Shown here piece by piece: positions 3,001 through 25,941 of a stretch of 41,679 bases of DNA. The stretch's first letter is position 1, and the number at the start of each line of letters is the position of its first letter. A program made the position numbers and the translations under genes. The notes under the pieces were generated by a model, which saw nothing but the letters and a program-made list of their open reading frames with translations, made no database searches and was not told the origin of the DNA. Source of the DNA: a virus; the IMG/VR virus record IMGVR_UViG_3300020157_000006, positions 1 to 41,679 of that record; one strand, 5' to 3'.

Positions 3001-3654
3001 ATGACAAATTCAAACATACCCAGCAAGAACCCGGCAGATGAAAGTACGCTTACGGGCATGCTTAATACAGTTTTGCGTAAAAATGCCATGTCAACAGATG
3101 GGCAGTTACCAGCAATCGTTATCAGTTATGACCGTGTTAAGAATGTTGCTTGCGTAAGGCCTTTGATTGACATAGTAGGCACCGGCGGACAAACCATTCA
3201 GCGCGCACAAATAGCCGCTATTCCGGTTTTAGCCTTGGGTGGAGGCGGCTTCTGTGTAACGTTTCCATTGGTGGCCGGTGACACGGGATGGATACAAGCC
3301 AGTGATAGGGATATTTCTCTATTCATGCAATCGCTTAAAGAATCCAAGCCCAACACACTCAGGATTAAAGATTTTGCAGATGCACGTTTTATACCGGACT
3401 CATTCAGAAAATACACGTATGACAATAGCCATGATTCAGCAGCAATGGTCATTCAGTCATGGGATGGCTCAGTAAAAATAACCCTGCAACCGGGCTCAGT
3501 GAATATTAAAGCCGCAGCGATAAATATAACGGGGGCTGTGAATATCAACGGAAATATAACAACGACGGGCACAATCACCAACAACGGTCATGCTGTTGAC
3601 TCTACGCACAAACATAACGATCCACAAGGCGGCACAACAGGAACACCACTATGA
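3001..3654 (+). CDS. Baseplate spike / puncturing protein (Gp138-like, gpV-like)
   Basis: The product is 217 residues. The N-terminal part, with IVISYDRVKNVACVRPLIDIV and DTGWIQASDRDIS, matches the OB-fold of Gp138-N/gpV-type spikes. The second half (SVKITLQPGSVNIKAAAINI and onward) is a repetitive beta-helix. The end carries an H-K-H sequence in THKHNDPQGG, the kind of His motif that binds iron at spike tips. There is no good Shine-Dalgarno before ATG 3001. A 14-codon ORF (ATG 2960 to TGA 3002-3004) ends over this start as ATGA, so translation may be coupled. Confidence 0.8.
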   Translation: MTNSNIPSKNPADESTLTGMLNTVLRKNAMSTDGQLPAIVISYDRVKNVACVRPLIDIVGTGGQTIQRAQIAAIPVLALGGGGFCVTFPLVAGDTGWIQASDRDISLFMQSLKESKPNTLRIKDFADARFIPDSFRKYTYDNSHDSAAMVIQSWDGSVKITLQPGSVNIKAAAINITGAVNINGNITTTGTITNNGHAVDSTHKHNDPQGGTTGTPL

Positions 3655-3992
3655 CGCAATCCATAGCATTGATTAATAATGATATTGGCCTGGATCAATT
3701 CGGAAATCTTGGATTTGTAGCGGGTATTAATGCAGTGATGCAGAATTGCCAGACGGCTATGCTCGCGCAAATGGGAGAAATGATGTATGCCATGAGCAGC
3801 GGAATGCCAACCCTGCAAACTGCTTGGAATAATTATAATCCCAGGCAATTTGAATCGGCAGCGAGAGCCGTATTAATGGCTGTATATGGTGTTACGTCAG
3901 TACAGTCATTTAGTGCTCAACTATCCAACAATGTGCTGACTTATGGCGCAACCATCCAAACCATTTACGGAGTAACTCAAATCAATGGCTAA
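3651..3992 (+). CDS. Baseplate wedge protein, gpW/gp25-like
   Basis: This 113-residue protein overlaps the spike gene stop by 4 bases (ATGA) and the J gene start by 8. Size and position between spike and J match the gpW/T4 gp25 family, which anchors the sheath to the baseplate. The opening contains IGLDQFGNLGFVAG, a form of the D-x-x-x-D/N-G-N-L segment seen in these proteins. The C-terminal half is poorly conserved by eye, so the call leans on synteny. Confidence 0.65.
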   Translation: MTQSIALINNDIGLDQFGNLGFVAGINAVMQNCQTAMLAQMGEMMYAMSSGMPTLQTAWNNYNPRQFESAARAVLMAVYGVTSVQSFSAQLSNNVLTYGATIQTIYGVTQING

Positions 3993-5175
3993 TACTTACG
4001 TAAATTCAACAGGCGTTATTTTAACTGATACCTCTGATATTCTAGCTGCAGTCCAAGCCGAATGGACAGTAGCATTAGGCACTAATTTAATTACTACACC
4101 TAGCACCCCGCAAGGCGTCTTAATCGCCCAAGAAACACAAGCCCGCACAAATGTGATGAACAATAACGCGGCATTAGCTAATCAAATTAATCCAAATGTT
4201 GCGGGAGGTGTATTTCTAAAGGCTATTTGCGCCTTGTTTAACATTCCAATTCCTGCGGCTACTTATACAACTGTTACGGCTACATTGTCAGGCGTAGCGG
4301 GAACGATTATCGCTGCAGGAACCCAAGCAACCACGGGCGCGGGTGATATTTTTCAACTTATATCACCTGTTAAAATTGGAGTTGGTGGTACGGTTTCAGG
4401 TAATTTTCAAGCGCTTGTTTCAGGTGCGATTCCTTGTAGTGCGGGATCTCTTTCAAATATCGCAATACAAACAGCCGTCATAGGCTGGGAATCAATTACC
4501 AATCCATTGGCGGGGGTTATTGGTATTTCCGCATTATCGGACGCTCAAATCCGCACGTTACGCAATAATACGTTAGGCGCTAACGGGGTTAGTTCGGTGG
4601 CTGCACAAATATCAGCGCTGTACTTAGTGCCCGGAGTAACCTCCTTGGCCTATCTTGAAAACAACACAAATGTACCTCAAACCATTAATGGCATTTATCT
4701 TGTTGCCAATAGTGTTTGGGCATGCGTTTCAGGCGGGACACCCGCTGCTATTGGTGCGGCATTATTAGCAGGTAAAACAGCGGGGGCAGCGTGGAATGGC
4801 GCTCAAGGGGTCACAGTGATAGAGGCGGCCAGTGGGCAATCTTATCAGGTGCTTTATGATGTCCCCACCCCTGTCCCGATTTTGGTAAGAATTACCCTCA
4901 GCCAAGGTACAAGCACCGCTAATTTATCGGTATCAGGTCCACAGGCTGTTTTAGATTTCGCAAACGGGCTATTAGCCGGAGAGCCGGGCTTTGTTATTGG
5001 CGCTAATGCATCACCTTACGATTTGGCCTCCGCTATAGCTATTGAAAATCCAGGGGTAAAAGTACGGAAAGTTGAGGTCGCACTCGTCTCGACTGGCATC
5101 TATCAAACCACTGAAATAGCTATCGCACTTAATCAAATAGCTACTGTTAGCAGCGTCACAGTGGTCATGGTATGA
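3985..5175 (+). CDS. Baseplate J-like protein
   Basis: The product is 396 residues. The N-terminus (YVNSTGVILTDTSDILAAV, then a long helix with NPNVAGGVFLKAICALFNI) and the central SDAQIRTLRNNTLGANGVSS are characteristic of baseplate J/gp47 proteins (DUF2163/Baseplate_J fold). J proteins form the wedge dimer that triggers sheath contraction. The gene overlaps both neighbours (8 bp upstream, 4 bp ATGA downstream), so it is part of one translationally coupled baseplate operon. Confidence 0.85.
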   Translation: MANTYVNSTGVILTDTSDILAAVQAEWTVALGTNLITTPSTPQGVLIAQETQARTNVMNNNAALANQINPNVAGGVFLKAICALFNIPIPAATYTTVTATLSGVAGTIIAAGTQATTGAGDIFQLISPVKIGVGGTVSGNFQALVSGAIPCSAGSLSNIAIQTAVIGWESITNPLAGVIGISALSDAQIRTLRNNTLGANGVSSVAAQISALYLVPGVTSLAYLENNTNVPQTINGIYLVANSVWACVSGGTPAAIGAALLAGKTAGAAWNGAQGVTVIEAASGQSYQVLYDVPTPVPILVRITLSQGTSTANLSVSGPQAVLDFANGLLAGEPGFVIGANASPYDLASAIAIENPGVKVRKVEVALVSTGIYQTTEIAIALNQIATVSSVTVVMV

Positions 5176-7770: not shown

Positions 7771-8403
7771 ATGATTACTTCAAAACAGGCCGTCGATTTA
7801 GCGGCGGCAATATATGACCCGATTGATGAAAGTAAGTTTGATACAGTAATTAAAATAGCTGGCGTGACAGTCGGGGTTAAAAATCTCGGTGATGTAACGG
7901 TCTTTAGTTTCGCTGGGAGTGAAAAGACGTTAGATTTTTTAAGGGACTCGTTCATCATTCCTGAATATCACCCGGGCGTTGGAGTCGTGGCCACTGGTTT
8001 TATGGTGGGCATGGATTCGATTTTTGAAAGCCTTTTGTCTTATCTACATGAGGCAAAAAGCATAGCGATTACTGGCCATAGCCTGGGTTGTTCGCATGGG
8101 CTAATCTTGGCTGGTCTATGTTTTTATAATGATTTTGCAGTTGCATCATTGGATTTATTCGCACCGCCAAAAACATCCTATTCGTATTTAAAAGGACTCG
8201 TTAAAAAGTGCGTTCCAACGATTAGGGCTTATCACAATGGACTTGACCCTGTACCCACAATCCCGCTTGGGCATGATTGGGCGCAGTATGACTTAATCCA
8301 TCTCCATGAAGAACCGCAACCCCCTTGGCATTTAGATCCAGTTCGGTGGCACATGATTGACCTTTATAAGCGTGGAATCGAGAAATTAAATGACGAAAAA
8401 TAG
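7771..8403 (+). CDS. Class 3 lipase-like alpha/beta hydrolase
   Basis: The product is 210 residues from ATG 7771; reading back to 7738 would run into the lipoprotein gene. The nucleophile elbow GHSLG places Ser104. The sequence LDPVPTIP around Asp159 matches the D-x-V-P motif of class 3 lipases, and His194 (RWHMIDL) can complete the triad in the usual S-D-H order. It likely cleaves lipids or another ester bond. It overlaps the endolysin gene by 14 bases, so it is expressed with lysis functions. It has no signal peptide, so it would need the holin to reach the envelope. Confidence 0.75.
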   Translation: MITSKQAVDLAAAIYDPIDESKFDTVIKIAGVTVGVKNLGDVTVFSFAGSEKTLDFLRDSFIIPEYHPGVGVVATGFMVGMDSIFESLLSYLHEAKSIAITGHSLGCSHGLILAGLCFYNDFAVASLDLFAPPKTSYSYLKGLVKKCVPTIRAYHNGLDPVPTIPLGHDWAQYDLIHLHEEPQPPWHLDPVRWHMIDLYKRGIEKLNDEK

Positions 8404-11189: not shown

Positions 11190-12050
11190 CTATTTTTTAG
11201 TCAATCTCTCAGTTATTTCGTTCGGTTTCATCACCACATAACCCCGCTCTTGGGTAGCGTATTGAATCCATTTATCGAATGTCATACTAAGTTCATTTTC
11301 TGGCATTGGCTTAATCTGAAAGGTTCCATCAGTTAAAGATATGAACCACCGATTAAACGAATAACCCTCAGTTAAAAATTTTAGTGTGATGGATTGCAAG
11401 CCATTGGGTAAGTTTAAATCGACGGTAAGACAATTTTCAGGTTTGGGCAGTAATTCGCCTTCAATGGGTAAGCGTGTAATCAGGCTAATCATATTAACAA
11501 AGTTATCCGGTGATACTTCTTTGTAACTCATGCCGAATTTCTTTTTGATGGCTGACCATTGTTTTATTATGCAACCCGCTTGCTTATCTTTGGGTAACTC
11601 TTCAGCCCTGGCTTTGACCAATGCCTTGATAGTGTCTTGTTGATCGAGGGATAAGCCATGGGGTAGAGCTTGTTTTGTTTTTGGTTCGGGTAACTGACAA
11701 GTATTGCTTAATAGTTGCTCAGCCATTGCATTAAAAGCATTGATATAAGCCTCTTTCCACTTGGCCGCTTCCTTGCCTGTGAAACCCATAGCTAAGAAGG
11801 TGAAACCGTCTTTTGTCATTTCATACATTGTGTAATTGGCTTTGCCACCGTTGACTTGATCGACCTCATAAGATGCTTCCTCAAAATTGAGGAGGCGAAA
11901 ATCATTTGAGCACTCAAGGTTTTTAATTGCCTTTATTATATTGTCGTGACGCTTGCCAAAATGCTCGGCAACTTTTAGTGATGTAGTTTTGATAGTGCCG
12001 TTAATAACAGCCAAGGAAGGGTTAAATTCTGTTTGAGCGATTGCGTTCAT
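11190..12050 (-). CDS. Rha-family phage regulatory protein / antirepressor
   Basis: The product is 286 residues. The N-terminal ~100 residues (TTSLKVAEHFGKRHDNIIKA, YTMYEMTKDGFTFLAMGFTG and AAKWKEAYINAFNAME-like) are the pRha DNA-binding domain. The middle (QQDTIKALVKARAEELP, IKQWSAIKKKFGMSYKEV and ARLPIEGELLP-like) resembles the C-terminal domain shared by phage antirepressors. A further ~80 residues are unassigned. It likely binds DNA or repressor to influence the lysis-lysogeny choice. The leader carries a C4-type antisense RNA and an overlapping Icd-like frame, the arrangement that controls ant in phage P1. Confidence 0.85.
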   Translation of the reverse strand: MNAIAQTEFNPSLAVINGTIKTTSLKVAEHFGKRHDNIIKAIKNLECSNDFRLLNFEEASYEVDQVNGGKANYTMYEMTKDGFTFLAMGFTGKEAAKWKEAYINAFNAMAEQLLSNTCQLPEPKTKQALPHGLSLDQQDTIKALVKARAEELPKDKQAGCIIKQWSAIKKKFGMSYKEVSPDNFVNMISLITRLPIEGELLPKPENCLTVDLNLPNGLQSITLKFLTEGYSFNRWFISLTDGTFQIKPMPENELSMTFDKWIQYATQERGYVVMKPNEITERLTKK

Positions 12051-12102
12051 TTTTTAGTCCTAAGTAACAAGTTTTAAACCTGCCACCAAAGACGCCAATC
12101 AA
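12022..12102 (-). CDS. Icd-like leader ORF overlapping the Rha start
   Basis: An open frame runs through the C4 region and ends at 12022, 29 bases inside the rha gene. A plausible start is TTG 12102 (26 residues); the frame is also open upstream to ATG 12225 through the C4 RNA itself. In phage P1 the icd frame overlaps ant in this way and its translation is needed for ant expression, while C4 RNA blocks it. Here the two C4 target sites lie just inside the frame. Coding status is inferred from this analogy only. Confidence 0.35.
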   Translation of the reverse strand: MIGVFGGRFKTCYLGLKNERNRSNRI

Positions 12103-12180
12103 GGGTGGCAAGATGAACGAGGTTGGCGTACAGGACTTAGGGCCTGCCAGTCTTGCGACTGCCTCGCGCACCCTGCCATA
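12103..12180 (-). ncRNA. c4: C4-type antisense RNA
   Basis: On the - strand the RNA has the C4 hallmarks: a GNRA hairpin CAGTC-GCAA-GACTG (12148-12161) between GC-rich segments (GGGTGCGCGAGG before, GGCAGGCCC after), then two single-stranded segments a' (ACGCCAACC, 12121-12129) and b' (TTGCCACCC, 12103-12111). Just downstream in the same transcript lie complementary sites a (TTGGCGT, 12092-12098) and b (GGTGGCA, 12081-12087), followed by the antirepressor-type gene. In P1 and P7, C4 is cut from the ant transcript and represses it by pairing at a and b. The same logic is inferred here. Confidence 0.85.
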
Positions 12181-12202
12181 ACGAGGGTAAAGCGATGAGC
12201 AT

Positions 12203-20362: not shown

Positions 20363-20842
20363 ATGCCAAACGACACCGAGCTTAAAACCAAAGCCGAAGA
20401 ACAAGTACATGACTATTTTCTTGTTAATGCTCTGAATAAAGCCCGTCTCGCTTTCTGTGTAAGTCACGGGTGCCTTACAACAGACAGACCTGATTTGGTT
20501 TCTGTTGATCCAGAAGTGTTTTGGACGCTGGATCACAGTAAAGAAATTAAGGCTATTGATGAGGCATTGGCATTGCTTAGCAGTGGTAATTTTAGCCACT
20601 ACTTTGGCTTTTTAGGCCCTCAACTCCGAGCATTAATGTCACGGCATATAGTGAACCCCGACGCGCTTCGAAAACTCGATGAGAAACAAAAAAGGAGCCG
20701 TATGGGTGTGTTATATCGTCTATATGGACTATATCCCCTGTATTGGGTAATGCGCCTGCTAGGAATGAGATCGTTATATTTTCGTATTCATAGGCGCTTA
20801 TATATGGCCTTGCATCATGGAGAAAGCCTATTTTGGCGGTGA
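20363..20842 (+). CDS. Hypothetical early protein, doubtful 3' half
   Basis: The product is 159 residues. The first ~90 residues look like a normal cytosolic protein (LKTKAEEQVHDYFLVNALNKAR, KEIKAIDEALALLSSGNFSHYFGFLGPQL). The last ~50 are rich in Arg, Leu and Tyr (YRLYGLYPLYWVMRLLGMRSLY), the composition expected when a frame shadows a gene on the other strand. That strand carries a good candidate at 20592-20852. Either both are used or this gene once ended earlier. No family recognised. Confidence 0.5.
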   Translation: MPNDTELKTKAEEQVHDYFLVNALNKARLAFCVSHGCLTTDRPDLVSVDPEVFWTLDHSKEIKAIDEALALLSSGNFSHYFGFLGPQLRALMSRHIVNPDALRKLDEKQKRSRMGVLYRLYGLYPLYWVMRLLGMRSLYFRIHRRLYMALHHGESLFWR

Positions 20843-21702: not shown

Positions 21703-24081
21703 ATGAATCCTAGCATTCAGGCCTATATCGACTTAAAAGTTTATATATTCCCGTGTTATTGGGTTATTGATACGGATAAAGGCCGTGCCTGTGCGTGTGG
21801 TGTGGAAGGTTGCAAGTCACCCGGAAAACATCCCATCAAGGAGCTGGTACCGAATGGACACAAAGACGCGTCCAATGATGCCGACCTGATTACAACGTGG
21901 TGGTCGACTTACCCTAAAGCCAATGTGGCGTTATCACTGGCTGAATCGGGTTTAGTCGTTATTGACATCGATCCACGCAACGGCGGCAACGGTACGTTTG
22001 ATGATCTGGAAGCCAAGCATGGAAAAATTGCTTCAGACGTTGAACAATTAACCGGCGGCGGTGGCCGTCATATTGTTTATATCGCTAATCATGATTCAAA
22101 GTTCCCGGGTAAATTAGGCCCGGGTGTCGATGTTAAACATCAGGGCTATATCATGGTCTGGCCGTCTAATCATATCTTAGGTGATTACGAATGGGAGGCG
22201 TCCAGTGATTTAACCGAGGGGATGATTCCATCACTCGCCCCCAGTTGGTTAGCTTTGCCTTCTGGCGACGAATACAACACCGATATAAAGCCCGCTTTAC
22301 CTGGCTTGGGCTTAGCCACTTTATTAGAGGCCGAAATAGACGAGATTAAATCAGCTCTTCTTTTTATCCCAAATAGCGAACGTGACGACTGGCTGCATGT
22401 GGGCATGGCGCTCCACTCCATTGATAGTGGTAGAGATGGCTTTCAGCTTTGGGAGGATTGGTCTAGCAGCTGCTCAAAGTTCGACGCGCAAGATCAGGCA
22501 CGGGTTTGGTTCAGCTTTCACGGCAAAGCGACTCAACTTAATAAGCAAAGCATTTTTCATATAGCCGCTGAAAACGGCTGGATTAATCCACTTAAAAAGG
22601 TGGTATCAGACGAGGTTAAAGCGGTTTCTGAAAAAGTATTACTAACCCTCGTTAATAATACTAATCCATCAATCGATGAATCCTCTATTGCCAAGCCTGA
22701 AATTACCCTTGATTTACCCTTTCCGGTCGGAGGACTAGAGGAGGTAGCTCAGCTCATTGGGACATCCAGTTATGTGAATTACCCGGATGCGTCCCGTTTG
22801 GCCGCTGTCCAATTAGCGTGTTTGTCCGCGTCAAGGCGCTATGTGGGCGACAATGGCGAGGGCTGCCATGTTTACTTCGGGTTATCGTCGGTATCGGTGG
22901 GCATGATTCGTTATACCGTCAATGCACTTCAGACGATCTTAACGGATGCGGGAATGCGTCAACTCTTTAGTAGCTCGCGCAAGTCAACCGCTGGCATCAT
23001 CCATGATCATCTAATCAGACGACCTGTCCATTTATATTGTGTGGAAGATTTTGGCAAGATGCTGCAGCAATCTAAGAAACAGTTTGGCAACGGCAGCATG
23101 GAACATGCTCTGGATACGCTAGGCTCCATTTACAGTAAATCCATTCTTCAGATCGATCAGGACGACATCACCACCAAGGGTAACAACTCAGAGACTAAAG
23201 TGGTTTATCAGCCCGCTTTATCGATGCTGGGACTGGTTTCTCAAGATCAACTGTCACAGCTTACGCGATCTTCTGAGATCGGGAGCGGGTTGATGGTTAA
23301 TATGCTGGTGGCCATTGTCGATGAAAACAAAGCCATTACTCATGACGACGTTAAACAAATCAATATCCCTGAGTGGTTAATACATCAACTAGCTACGATG
23401 AGGGGTTTCCATCCAGTAGATCGTAAGGCAGACAAATCCTTTGACTTTTCAAATGATCGAGGCGACTTCCAACCAACAGAACAAATTATTGTCCCCATGC
23501 CTAGCGCAAAAATGTATGACGCTAAAATTATGGTGCTCGCTGGAAAGCAGAAAAATCTTATACCCATGCTTCACGGCGCTCGCGTCACTATGCGAAGAAT
23601 ATCCATTGCATTAGCCGCGTGGAATAACCCAACCGCTCCCGTCGTCACTGATGACATTATGGCCTGGTCATCTGATTTTGTTTATACCCACGCAAAACGC
23701 TTTGTGGATGAGTTTGGTGTCTCTGAGACGGATGATGACGGCAAGCTCTCCATGTATCAGAAAGTTTTAAAAATCATCATTGATAAAGGCATCGATGGCG
23801 CAACTAAAGACGACATGCGGTATTGCAGACAATTTAAAGTGACGCCGCCCGATGCTAAAAGAGCATTGCTTGAACTAATGGAAGATAACGAAGATGTACA
23901 GTTTACAAAGATCGGCACTAAAAAAAGATATATAGCCACCCGGTTTATCACAAGTCCGGGCAAAACATCTCAACTCCGGGCAACTCCGGGCAAAAAAAAT
24001 GCACCTTTGCCCGGAGTTGATTCCAGCAAATTAGCCGCTTCGGAGTCTACTCCGGGCGGGCGGGCAGGAATTGACTACTAA
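21703..24081 (+). CDS. Primase-polymerase / helicase-like replication protein
   Basis: The product is 792 residues. Residues 1-190 form a bifunctional primase-polymerase domain: the catalytic pair in VIDIDPRNGG (Asp88, Asp90), His123 in GGRHIVY, Asp143 in GPGVDVKHQGY, and an N-terminal Cys group (CACGVEGC). Residues about 212-293 resemble PriCT-2 (RDDWLHVGMALHSI, GFQLWEDWS). The central 300 residues resemble DUF3987, a degenerate helicase-like domain; I see no clear Walker A. The last ~45 residues are encoded by the iteron array. It likely starts DNA replication as P4 alpha does. Confidence 0.85.
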   Translation: MNPSIQAYIDLKVYIFPCYWVIDTDKGRACACGVEGCKSPGKHPIKELVPNGHKDASNDADLITTWWSTYPKANVALSLAESGLVVIDIDPRNGGNGTFDDLEAKHGKIASDVEQLTGGGGRHIVYIANHDSKFPGKLGPGVDVKHQGYIMVWPSNHILGDYEWEASSDLTEGMIPSLAPSWLALPSGDEYNTDIKPALPGLGLATLLEAEIDEIKSALLFIPNSERDDWLHVGMALHSIDSGRDGFQLWEDWSSSCSKFDAQDQARVWFSFHGKATQLNKQSIFHIAAENGWINPLKKVVSDEVKAVSEKVLLTLVNNTNPSIDESSIAKPEITLDLPFPVGGLEEVAQLIGTSSYVNYPDASRLAAVQLACLSASRRYVGDNGEGCHVYFGLSSVSVGMIRYTVNALQTILTDAGMRQLFSSSRKSTAGIIHDHLIRRPVHLYCVEDFGKMLQQSKKQFGNGSMEHALDTLGSIYSKSILQIDQDDITTKGNNSETKVVYQPALSMLGLVSQDQLSQLTRSSEIGSGLMVNMLVAIVDENKAITHDDVKQINIPEWLIHQLATMRGFHPVDRKADKSFDFSNDRGDFQPTEQIIVPMPSAKMYDAKIMVLAGKQKNLIPMLHGARVTMRRISIALAAWNNPTAPVVTDDIMAWSSDFVYTHAKRFVDEFGVSETDDDGKLSMYQKVLKIIIDKGIDGATKDDMRYCRQFKVTPPDAKRALLELMEDNEDVQFTKIGTKKRYIATRFITSPGKTSQLRATPGKKNAPLPGVDSSKLAASESTPGGRAGIDY

Positions 24082-24201
24082 AATAAAAGTTCATGTATAG
24101 CGCCCGCCCGCCCGGAGTTGCTCTAGGCCACGAATTTAAATGCTTTAACTCCGGGCAAACTCCGGGCAGGCGCCCGAAATTGAGAAAAACGCCCGGAGTT
24201 G
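23951..24201. repeat. Iteron-like array, candidate replication origin
   Basis: About nine copies of an 11-bp motif CAACTCCGGGC (allowing one mismatch) lie in 251 bases. Forward: 23951, 23971, 23981, 24047, 24146, 24157. Reverse (GCCCGGAGTTG): 24009, 24110, 24191. They straddle the primase stop codon at 24079-24081. AT-rich stretches separate them. P4-type systems place initiator-binding iterons beside the alpha primase gene, so this is a good candidate origin, though an RNA-level or other role is possible. Confidence 0.85.
24049..24118. repeat. 17-bp perfect GC-rich inverted repeat inside the iteron array
   Basis: ACTCCGGGCGGGCGGGC (24049-24065) and its exact complement (24102-24118) flank a 36-base AT-rich spacer that holds the primase stop codon. 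The arms contain three tandem GGGC units and include one forward and one reverse iteron core. Such a cruciform or RNA hairpin is extreme in this moderate-GC genome. Confidence 0.9.
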
Positions 24202-24220
24202 TAAATTTTAAGCAAAAAAA

Positions 24221-24251
24221 AGCCCCACTTAGAAGCCATCTAAGCAGGGCT
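24221..24251 (-). terminator. Leftward-facing terminator-like hairpin
   Basis: AGCCC/GGGCT and CTTAG/CTAAG arms form a 10-bp interrupted stem. Seven A residues lie on the + strand just before it (24214-24220), so T residues follow only when read on the - strand. It would stop transcription entering the iteron region from the right; no - strand gene here needs it. Confidence 0.65.
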
Positions 24252-24283
24252 CAACCACCAACCAACTAAATAGGAGTTGAATC

Positions 24284-24538
24284 ATGGCAGAGCAAAATAT
24301 AACACAAGATACTTGTGAAAAATGTAAATTTTGGCTTAGGCAAGATGAGCAAAACAATAAATTTAATGAACCTTATGGAGAATGCCGACGAAACCCACCT
24401 GTACTTTTTAGATACTCTGACTCTAATAAAACAGATGATTCAATATTAGACATCATTGCTGAATATACTCATTTCCCCGTTACATTCTTTGATTGCTATT
24501 GCGGGGAATTTAAACATTTTTTGGAGTTATTAAAATGA
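24284..24538 (+). CDS. Small zinc-binding phage protein
   Basis: The product is 84 residues after an excellent AGGAG site. CEKCKFW at the start, GECRRNPP in the middle and CYCGEFK near the end form the four-Cys pattern of a widespread small phage protein family with a GxCRRxPP motif; the Cys residues likely bind one zinc. Role unknown. It overlaps the helicase gene by 4 bases (ATGA). Confidence 0.75.
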   Translation: MAEQNITQDTCEKCKFWLRQDEQNNKFNEPYGECRRNPPVLFRYSDSNKTDDSILDIIAEYTHFPVTFFDCYCGEFKHFLELLK

Positions 24539-25941
24539 GCGCCGTCTTAAAGTTAGAACCAAAAAAACCTGAGATCATTCTCAACGATCAACAAGAGGCC
24601 GCTATTAGTGCTTTGGTTGAATTTATTTCTGAAGAGTTAGGCGATACTTTTACGATTAAAGGTTACGCCGGTACCGGTAAAAGCACGTCGATTCAGGTTT
24701 TGCTTGAACGTCTTAAAGCTGAAGGTATTCAGAAGAAAATAATCTTTACGGCACCCACACACAAAGCCGTCAAAGTTTTACGGCGCATGGCTTTTGAAAA
24801 AGGCATTGATGATGTGGCGTTCTCGACGATTCATTCATTGCTTGGCTTAAAGGTTAAACAGGTTGGCGATAAACAAACGCTTGAGCCGTTAAAACAAGTT
24901 AGAAAAAACGACCCCCTGCGTGAGGTGCAAATTGTCGTTGTTGATGAGTGCTCTATGATCGGTGAGGACCTTTACAAGCACATTAAGAACTCGCTCAAGT
25001 TTTATGACATACAGTACATCTTTATGGGTGATCCGGTTCAATTACCACCCGTCGGTGAAAAAGAAAGCCCTACCTTTGAATCGACCGAATTTAGAGCCTT
25101 ATTAACCAAGGTCATGAGGCAACGGGAAGAAAACCCTGTACTGGGTGTTTGTACGGATATTAGAGAGGTATTTACCCGAGGCGATAGTCGATTGCCTCGC
25201 CTTATTCCTGGGATGGCTGACGATGGGTCTGTGGGCGTCAGTGTGATGCTGGGTAATCTGTTTACTGAGTGGATGCCTGTGGCTTTCTCACATGACAACT
25301 TTGATGGTAATCCAGATCGTTTTAGAGTTGTAGCGTGGCGAAACGATACGGTTGAGCGGATTAATAACATGATTCATAACATCCGTTATCCAAATTGTAA
25401 CGAATGGCTTGCAGCCGGCGAACCGATCACGTTTGTAAAGCCTATGCAAAACTCATCGTTATTGAATCCAGTTTCAGGCGTAAAGATGGATGAAATTATT
25501 GTGCAGACTGATTTTGAAGGGCAAGTCATTGAGTGCACTCATTCAGTACATCCATCTTTTCCAGATATTAATGCCTGGTCTGTCACGGTAAAAATAGAGA
25601 CCGGAGAACAACATACTTTTTATGCGTTGGATTCTATCGGCTCTCAAATTAGGGACGTCACAATGAAACAGATTGCTGCTCAAAATAGAGGTTATGACAA
25701 AGCCGGGCAAAAAGATCGAGTTAATTGGTGGCCTTATTACGAATTGCAGCAAGCTTTCGCAGCGATCAGACCCGCTTATTGCTTAACGGCTCATAAAAGC
25801 CAGGGCAGCACGTTTGAGAATGTTTTTGTTGATGTGATGGACATATGGGCCAATCCAAACAAATCCGAGGCTCTACAGTGTTTATATGTGGCTTGCTCAA
25901 GAGCCAGTCATCATCTAATCGTTAACGCCACGGGAGCTTAA
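24535..25941 (+). CDS. SF1 helicase, Dda/RecD2-like
   Basis: The product is 468 residues. Motifs in order: LNDQQEAAISAL (Q-like), GYAGTGKST (Walker A, about residues 43-51), APTHKAVKVLR (Ia), VVDECSMIG (II), GDPVQLPPVG (III), RQREENPV (IV region), and near the end CLTAHKSQGSTFENVFVD (V) with YVACSRA (VI). This is the 5'-3' RecD/Dda class and probably acts at the replication fork. It is coupled to both neighbours by overlaps. Confidence 0.9.
   Translation: MSAVLKLEPKKPEIILNDQQEAAISALVEFISEELGDTFTIKGYAGTGKSTSIQVLLERLKAEGIQKKIIFTAPTHKAVKVLRRMAFEKGIDDVAFSTIHSLLGLKVKQVGDKQTLEPLKQVRKNDPLREVQIVVVDECSMIGEDLYKHIKNSLKFYDIQYIFMGDPVQLPPVGEKESPTFESTEFRALLTKVMRQREENPVLGVCTDIREVFTRGDSRLPRLIPGMADDGSVGVSVMLGNLFTEWMPVAFSHDNFDGNPDRFRVVAWRNDTVERINNMIHNIRYPNCNEWLAAGEPITFVKPMQNSSLLNPVSGVKMDEIIVQTDFEGQVIECTHSVHPSFPDINAWSVTVKIETGEQHTFYALDSIGSQIRDVTMKQIAAQNRGYDKAGQKDRVNWWPYYELQQAFAAIRPAYCLTAHKSQGSTFENVFVDVMDIWANPNKSEALQCLYVACSRASHHLIVNATGA

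Follow-up and report, generated by a model that had tools for sequence, protein, structure and literature searches.

A contractile-tailed temperate phage carries a cluster of short repeats in both orientations that overlaps the 3′ end of the gene for a presumed Prim-Pol initiator and continues past it; the cluster is most probably a replication origin of the iteron type. The window that we analyzed is the whole 41,679-nucleotide stretch of one viral record (IMGVR_UViG_3300020157_000006), and repeat searches combined with shuffles place the candidate origin at positions 23951 to 24201, with sites on both strands. The initial annotation had counted about nine copies in both orientations over these bases, partly within coding sequence; its coordinates and count were right, and we find ten sites that match CAACTCCGGGC with at most two mismatches, comprising five exact copies, four with one mismatch, and one with two. 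Six are on the plus strand and four on the minus strand. The exact copies are located at 23971 to 23981 (+), 23981 to 23991 (+), 24009 to 24019 (−), 24110 to 24120 (−), and 24191 to 24201 (−). The single-mismatch copies are CAAGTCCGGGC at 23951 to 23961, CTACTCCGGGC at 24047 to 24057, TAACTCCGGGC at 24146 to 24156, and AAACTCCGGGC at 24157 to 24167, all on the plus strand, and the degenerate copy with two mismatches, CAATTTCGGGC, is at 24172 to 24182 (−).

The clustering of these sites far exceeds the chance level. With up to two mismatches, the 41.7 kb contain 20 matches to CAACTCCGGGC, 10 of them inside the 251-bp array, compared with 6.8 ± 2.5 expected from dinucleotide shuffles of the whole window (n = 100; maximum, 12; observed number reached in 0 of 100). 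Looking for repeated 9-mers across all 500-bp windows, with no seed given, likewise returned 9 copies at the array and at most 6, mostly 3 to 4, elsewhere; when the region was shuffled 20 times, the seed-free count never exceeded 4. A matrix built from the ten sites places 10 of its best 12 matches in the 41.7 kb within the array, a result that, because the matrix was trained on the array's own sites, mainly shows the absence of strong copies elsewhere, with the exceptions of 20621 and 4629. The first of these is a lone near-perfect iteron, CAACTCCGAGC, at 20621 to 20631 (+) near the early operon, which could be a chance match or a regulatory site. Dyad pairing of 6 of the 10 sites at this array does not reach significance (p 0.3–0.5). 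Elsewhere in the window, a C4 antisense RNA (RF01695, E 6e-10) at 12101 to 12183 (−) adjoins an antirepressor-like gene (11190–12050).

The exact motif doublet had no match in viral contigs outside the window, and blastn of the array against phage and plasmid records gave short chance matches only. Two broader searches were set aside: a looser doublet in viral contigs returned 65 loci, mostly low-complexity coding sequence, and an inverted-pair pattern returned 36 loci, mostly terminators. Further repeat clusters were noted at other loci. ACTCCGG sites in both orientations occur at L030:3772–3830 inside an ORF (3185–4162, −) that resembles a phage replication protein, possibly an in-gene origin as in lambda O, and a viral contig carries two CTCCGG-type inverted-repeat clusters upstream of its terminase genes (L057:2140–2240 and 2660–2870).

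The way in which the array lies across the end of the upstream gene indicates that the repeat is maintained at the level of DNA. The array begins 4 nt past the conserved C-terminal domain of the encoded protein, P0001 (KKRYIATRF, ending at 23946), runs through the stop codon of the 792-residue ORF at 24079 to 24081, and extends 120 nt beyond it, so that five sites are coding and five noncoding. The four coding sites on the plus strand occupy two frames (offsets 1, 0, 1, 1), another coding site is inverted, and copies of the word go on past the stop; together these features point to a constraint on DNA. The left half of the array encodes a 44-residue C-terminal tail of P0001 (23947–24078, +) that has no counterpart in relatives and contains SPG, TPG, LPG, and TPG. 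The proposal that this tail, with its repeated TPG residues, is a by-product of the DNA sites holds up well: sequence relatives of P0001 end at about the winged-helix-like domain, the 44 extra residues start with the array, and the sites use two frames and both strands. The tail would then have arisen as DNA sites spread over an old gene end. That the repeats are instead a selfish or coding element with no replication function, either REP-like or a low-complexity tail, is extremely improbable. Short inverted GC-rich repeats do resemble REP elements and the tail does repeat xPG, but the window holds no other such array, the repeats occur in two frames, on the reverse strand, and in noncoding DNA, and in relatives unrelated words hold the same place.

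Two sets of iterons, five sites on each side, flank an AT-rich center at 24066 to 24101 that includes the stop codon and is a candidate melting site; its A+T content is 72%, whereas the array as a whole has 46% and the window 57%. This center forms the 36-nt loop of a perfect 17-bp inverted repeat at 24049 to 24118 (arms 24049–24065 and 24102–24118) that can form a stem-loop (z = −6.8), and folding of the whole strand at the array gives a z of −9.8. These values would also suit an origin of the pRN1 type, in which the Prim-Pol protein recognizes a 17-bp stem with an AT-rich loop rather than a repeat word, and pRN1 offers a precedent for a stem-loop past a Prim-Pol gene in the absence of iterons (PMC4234260). 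Inverted iterons fold on their own, however, so folding cannot separate this reading from the iteron reading. Because such an origin would not require ten copies of one word, several of them direct repeats, and because the word tracks protein residues in actinobacterial relatives, we consider it quite unlikely.

The same folding, together with the placement of the array between two genes that run in the same direction, could be read as gene-end hairpins that stop or dampen transcription toward the helicase operon downstream, and a further hairpin directly after the array (24220–24252) is terminator-like if read on the minus strand. Against a transcription element, the sites lie in several frames and reach ≈130 nt inside the gene, their number far exceeds the two arms of a terminator, and the plus strand has no T-run after the array, making this explanation very unlikely.

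The presumed initiator, P0001 (792 residues; 21703–24081, +), is an archaeo-eukaryotic Prim-Pol assigned to phrog_3022. It matches PF09250 (E 2e-24) over residues 7 to 172 and PriCT_2 (PF08707) over residues 216 to 288, carries the Prim-Pol DxD motif, and continues into a helicase-like region. The initial annotation had likened it to P4-type alpha proteins, a label that has to be withdrawn: Pfam matched neither a DnaG-type primase nor a D5 helicase in P0001. The Walker A lysine, which most phage relatives have (e.g., SGSGKE), is absent (SSVSVGMIRYT, window 22850–22960), so P0001 may not itself unwind DNA. Its helicase module may thus be inactive, with the Dda-like SF1 helicase encoded downstream of the array (24535–25941, +) as a possible substitute. 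The C-terminal domain at residues 682 to 748 (LSMYQK...KKRYIATRF; 23746–23946, +) is winged-helix-like and is the presumed reader of the iterons. An AlphaFold model of this domain, at a pLDDT of 45 that is too low to use, gives a helix-helix-helix-strand-strand order, and the region is at most consistent with a winged helix. Searches for close relatives of P0001 in viral contigs found none, and a PDB sequence search gave no useful match.

To see the array in a wider context, we turn to genes that carry repeats in the same place. When ≈85,000 bacterial and archaeal genomes were scanned for the motif doublet accompanied by an inverted copy nearby, five loci emerged, only one of which is a true array: 13 copies, in a Micromonospora prophage, that directly follow a gene of the DNA polymerase/primase type. 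The other four (L078, L080–L082) were discarded as coding repeats or terminators; at L082:2134–2250, for example, repeated CCGGAGTTG at an ORF start encodes an ELPELPELPE N terminus, a low-complexity coding repeat and not such an array. With the Micromonospora protein as query within the same bacterial family, we obtained 30 mutually related loci. In 29 of them, a single word occurs 7 to 14 times in both orientations, almost always no more than ≈330 nt past the stop codon, whereas shuffles and gene-internal stretches give at most 6 copies. The words vary among these loci and include CATCTCCGCA, CATCTCGGCA, CACCTCCGCA, CAAACCCGCA, AACCCCCGCA, and CAACTCCGGG, as well as others. A class-wide actinobacterial sample showed an array in 13 of 17 cases, one of the negatives being due to a mislocated stop. 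In the one locus checked for its surroundings (L131), the rep gene follows a separate Prim-Pol gene and adjoins an integrase gene. Three distant actinobacterial rep genes (L250, L252, and L255) have a smaller version of the same layout, with 3+3 mirrored copies (three minus followed by three plus, or the inverse) ≈100 nt apart.

Variation of the word within this family made it possible to ask which parts of the protein vary with it. Among 52 distinct actinobacterial rep proteins whose arrays use the word CATCTC[C/G]GCA, with the C or G shared by all copies of an array, the residue at position −11 from the C terminus is Asp in 40 of 40 C-type proteins and Asn in 11 of 12 G-type proteins, the twelfth having a deletion there. 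Position −15 is Ser, Asn, or Thr in the C-type and His in 11 of the 12 G-type proteins. Normalized mutual information (MI/H) with the repeat base is 1.00 at −11 and 0.86 at −15, and the next highest of 516 columns reaches 0.31; the ceiling was 0.50 when labels were permuted and 0.27 among third codon positions in the final 110 codons. A tree from which the last 100 residues had been left out requires at least 10 changes of the repeat word. Linkage was considered as the cause and ruled out, since neighboring residues and third codon positions have no such association. Linkage or ancestry alone would not pick out −11 and −15, and this computed covariation leads us to conclude that the actinobacterial rep protein most likely contacts its repeats through its C-terminal wing.

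The layout is also found outside the actinobacteria, with clear gaps. Of 22 proteobacterial Prim-Pol loci, relatives of P0001, four have an array above all shuffles, two of these four only marginally (L192, from Pseudoalteromonas phage H103, and L178), and 18 do not exceed the shuffles; Prim-Pol-type genes at L173 and L169 are followed by 11 and 7 copies past the stop, respectively. Most lytic proteobacterial Prim-Pol phages have no array at the gene end, so the rule is not universal. Among phages whose terminase is related to that of the window's phage, L329 and L332 have their arrays where a VapE-type gene ends. Also in this group, L308 carries 8 TGTTTCGCC sites at 7809 to 8113 that overlap the end of a replication gene of the AAA_25 type, and no other locus comes closer to the coding overlap seen in the window. 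A Shewanella plasmid with a P0001-like gene yielded no array, and on a Psychrobacter plasmid encoding a relative of the actinobacterial rep protein, the array is marginal at best.

Taken as an origin, the array suggests a simple course of events. The winged-helix-like C-terminal domain of the Prim-Pol protein would bind the CAACTCCGGGC sites, about five per side, and the bound protein would melt the AT-rich center around the stop codon. The Prim-Pol domain could then prime both exposed strands, sending two forks in opposite directions, with unwinding done or helped by a helicase such as the neighboring Dda-like protein. We infer binding, melting, and initiation in the window's phage by analogy: hhalign (A1 and P0001 against A2) found nothing in the C-terminal half of P0001 that resembles the actinobacterial rep family, so the covariation and the pWTY27 experiment described below transfer by architecture only. 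The architecture that appears to be shared comprises a Prim-Pol module, about ten sites in both orientations, a position where the rep gene ends, and a central spacer.

The array could also be an initiator-bound control element that acts by titration or pairing, operon autoregulation, or copy control, with initiation elsewhere. Plasmid iterons commonly have control roles too, and a promoter-like match lies at 24180 to 24207, though such matches arise by chance. We nevertheless regard a purely regulatory array as unlikely, because no second origin-like repeat cluster was found in the window and because 3′ arrays of such layout are origins where tested (pWTY27 and phage-inducible islands, PICIs). 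A leader at 18.6 to 18.9 kb, named earlier as a rival origin, has one 22-bp inverted repeat and no array. The expected change of sign in GC skew near the array did not clearly emerge, as the skew stays close to zero between 20 and 24 kb and is positive farther on; it is uninformative here because gene direction also flips at ≈20 kb. The broader suggestion that the array is an origin or control element read by the upstream initiator gains support, by analogy, from the arrays in the same place, the actinobacterial covariation, and pWTY27.

On balance we lean, modestly, toward a more general proposal. Iteron arrays at the 3′ gene end may be a common origin plan of Prim-Pol/helicase-type initiators across several phyla, in phages and plasmids as well as integrative elements, with words rewritten in concert with the protein; in one family, wing residues (Asp or Asn at −11; Ser, Asn, or Thr versus His at −15) would set one base of the word, giving each element a private origin code. 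Most temperate phage origins are unmapped, and under this proposal an origin would be predictable from the end of the primase-helicase gene, with a two-residue code tracking one repeat base. Origin finding, element compatibility, and initiator specificity would become directly testable, and a layout described as unique to PICIs would be common to ordinary phages and actinobacterial elements. In the literature searched, we found no description of either the breadth of the layout or the two-residue association.

Several known systems share parts of this arrangement. The alpha/ori/crr system of phage P4 likewise has a primase-helicase-like initiator, a C-terminal DNA-binding domain, and repeats, but the primase domain of P4 alpha is of the bacterial type (PMC4234260), whereas P0001 is an AEP Prim-Pol. 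pRN1 requires a 100-nt stem-loop located 54 bp past its Prim-Pol gene and has no iterons (PMC4234260). It resembles the window in having a Prim-Pol protein with a C-terminal winged helix, which in our case is a low-confidence model, and a large stem-loop past the gene; it differs in its SF3 helicase and in that the window has iterons in addition to the stem-loop. The actinobacterial loci are similar to the modules of actinomycete integrative elements (AICEs) such as SLP1 (SCO4617/SCO4618), in which a Prim-Pol gene and a second replication gene sit beside an integrase gene (PMC3218068), and the arrangement at L131 resembles these Prim-Pol/RepPP modules. AICEs are integrative elements, and the report on them does not mention iterons (PMC3218068).

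The Streptomyces plasmid pWTY27 connects the actinobacterial arrays to experiment. Its RepA is a distant homologous member of the actinobacterial rep family (35.6% identity over 99%, E 1e-69), an "iteron" region lies directly 3′ of repA, RepA specifically binds that region in vitro, and the locus replicates bidirectionally (PMC3583192). We find that the array contains 10 copies of CGTGGGAAC, 51 to 276 nt past the repA stop, with 10 of 10 paired about one dyad axis (p < 0.001). pWTY27 and the window both combine a Prim-Pol gene (RepB in pWTY27) and a replication protein with 10 short sites, present in both orientations, where the rep gene ends. Unlike in the window, primase and RepA are two genes, the array lies entirely past the stop, the repeat is GTGGGAAC, and no similarity is detectable between the RepA family and P0001's C-terminal half.

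In the PICIs, the origin directly follows pri-rep and consists of two sets of iterons with an AT-rich stretch between them (PMC6092414), as is also the case in SaPIs (PMC7581432). There, the Rep C-terminal domain recognizes the iterons (PMC6092414, PMC7581432), and the window is alike in its two sets flanking an AT-rich stretch. PICIs and SaPIs are satellite islands, whereas in the window the phage is full-size, it encodes a Prim-Pol protein, and its array reaches into the end of the coding sequence. Origins laid out 3′ of rep are already known from PICIs and pWTY27; the window's candidate origin adds these three features to that layout, with the Prim-Pol protein as the presumed initiator.
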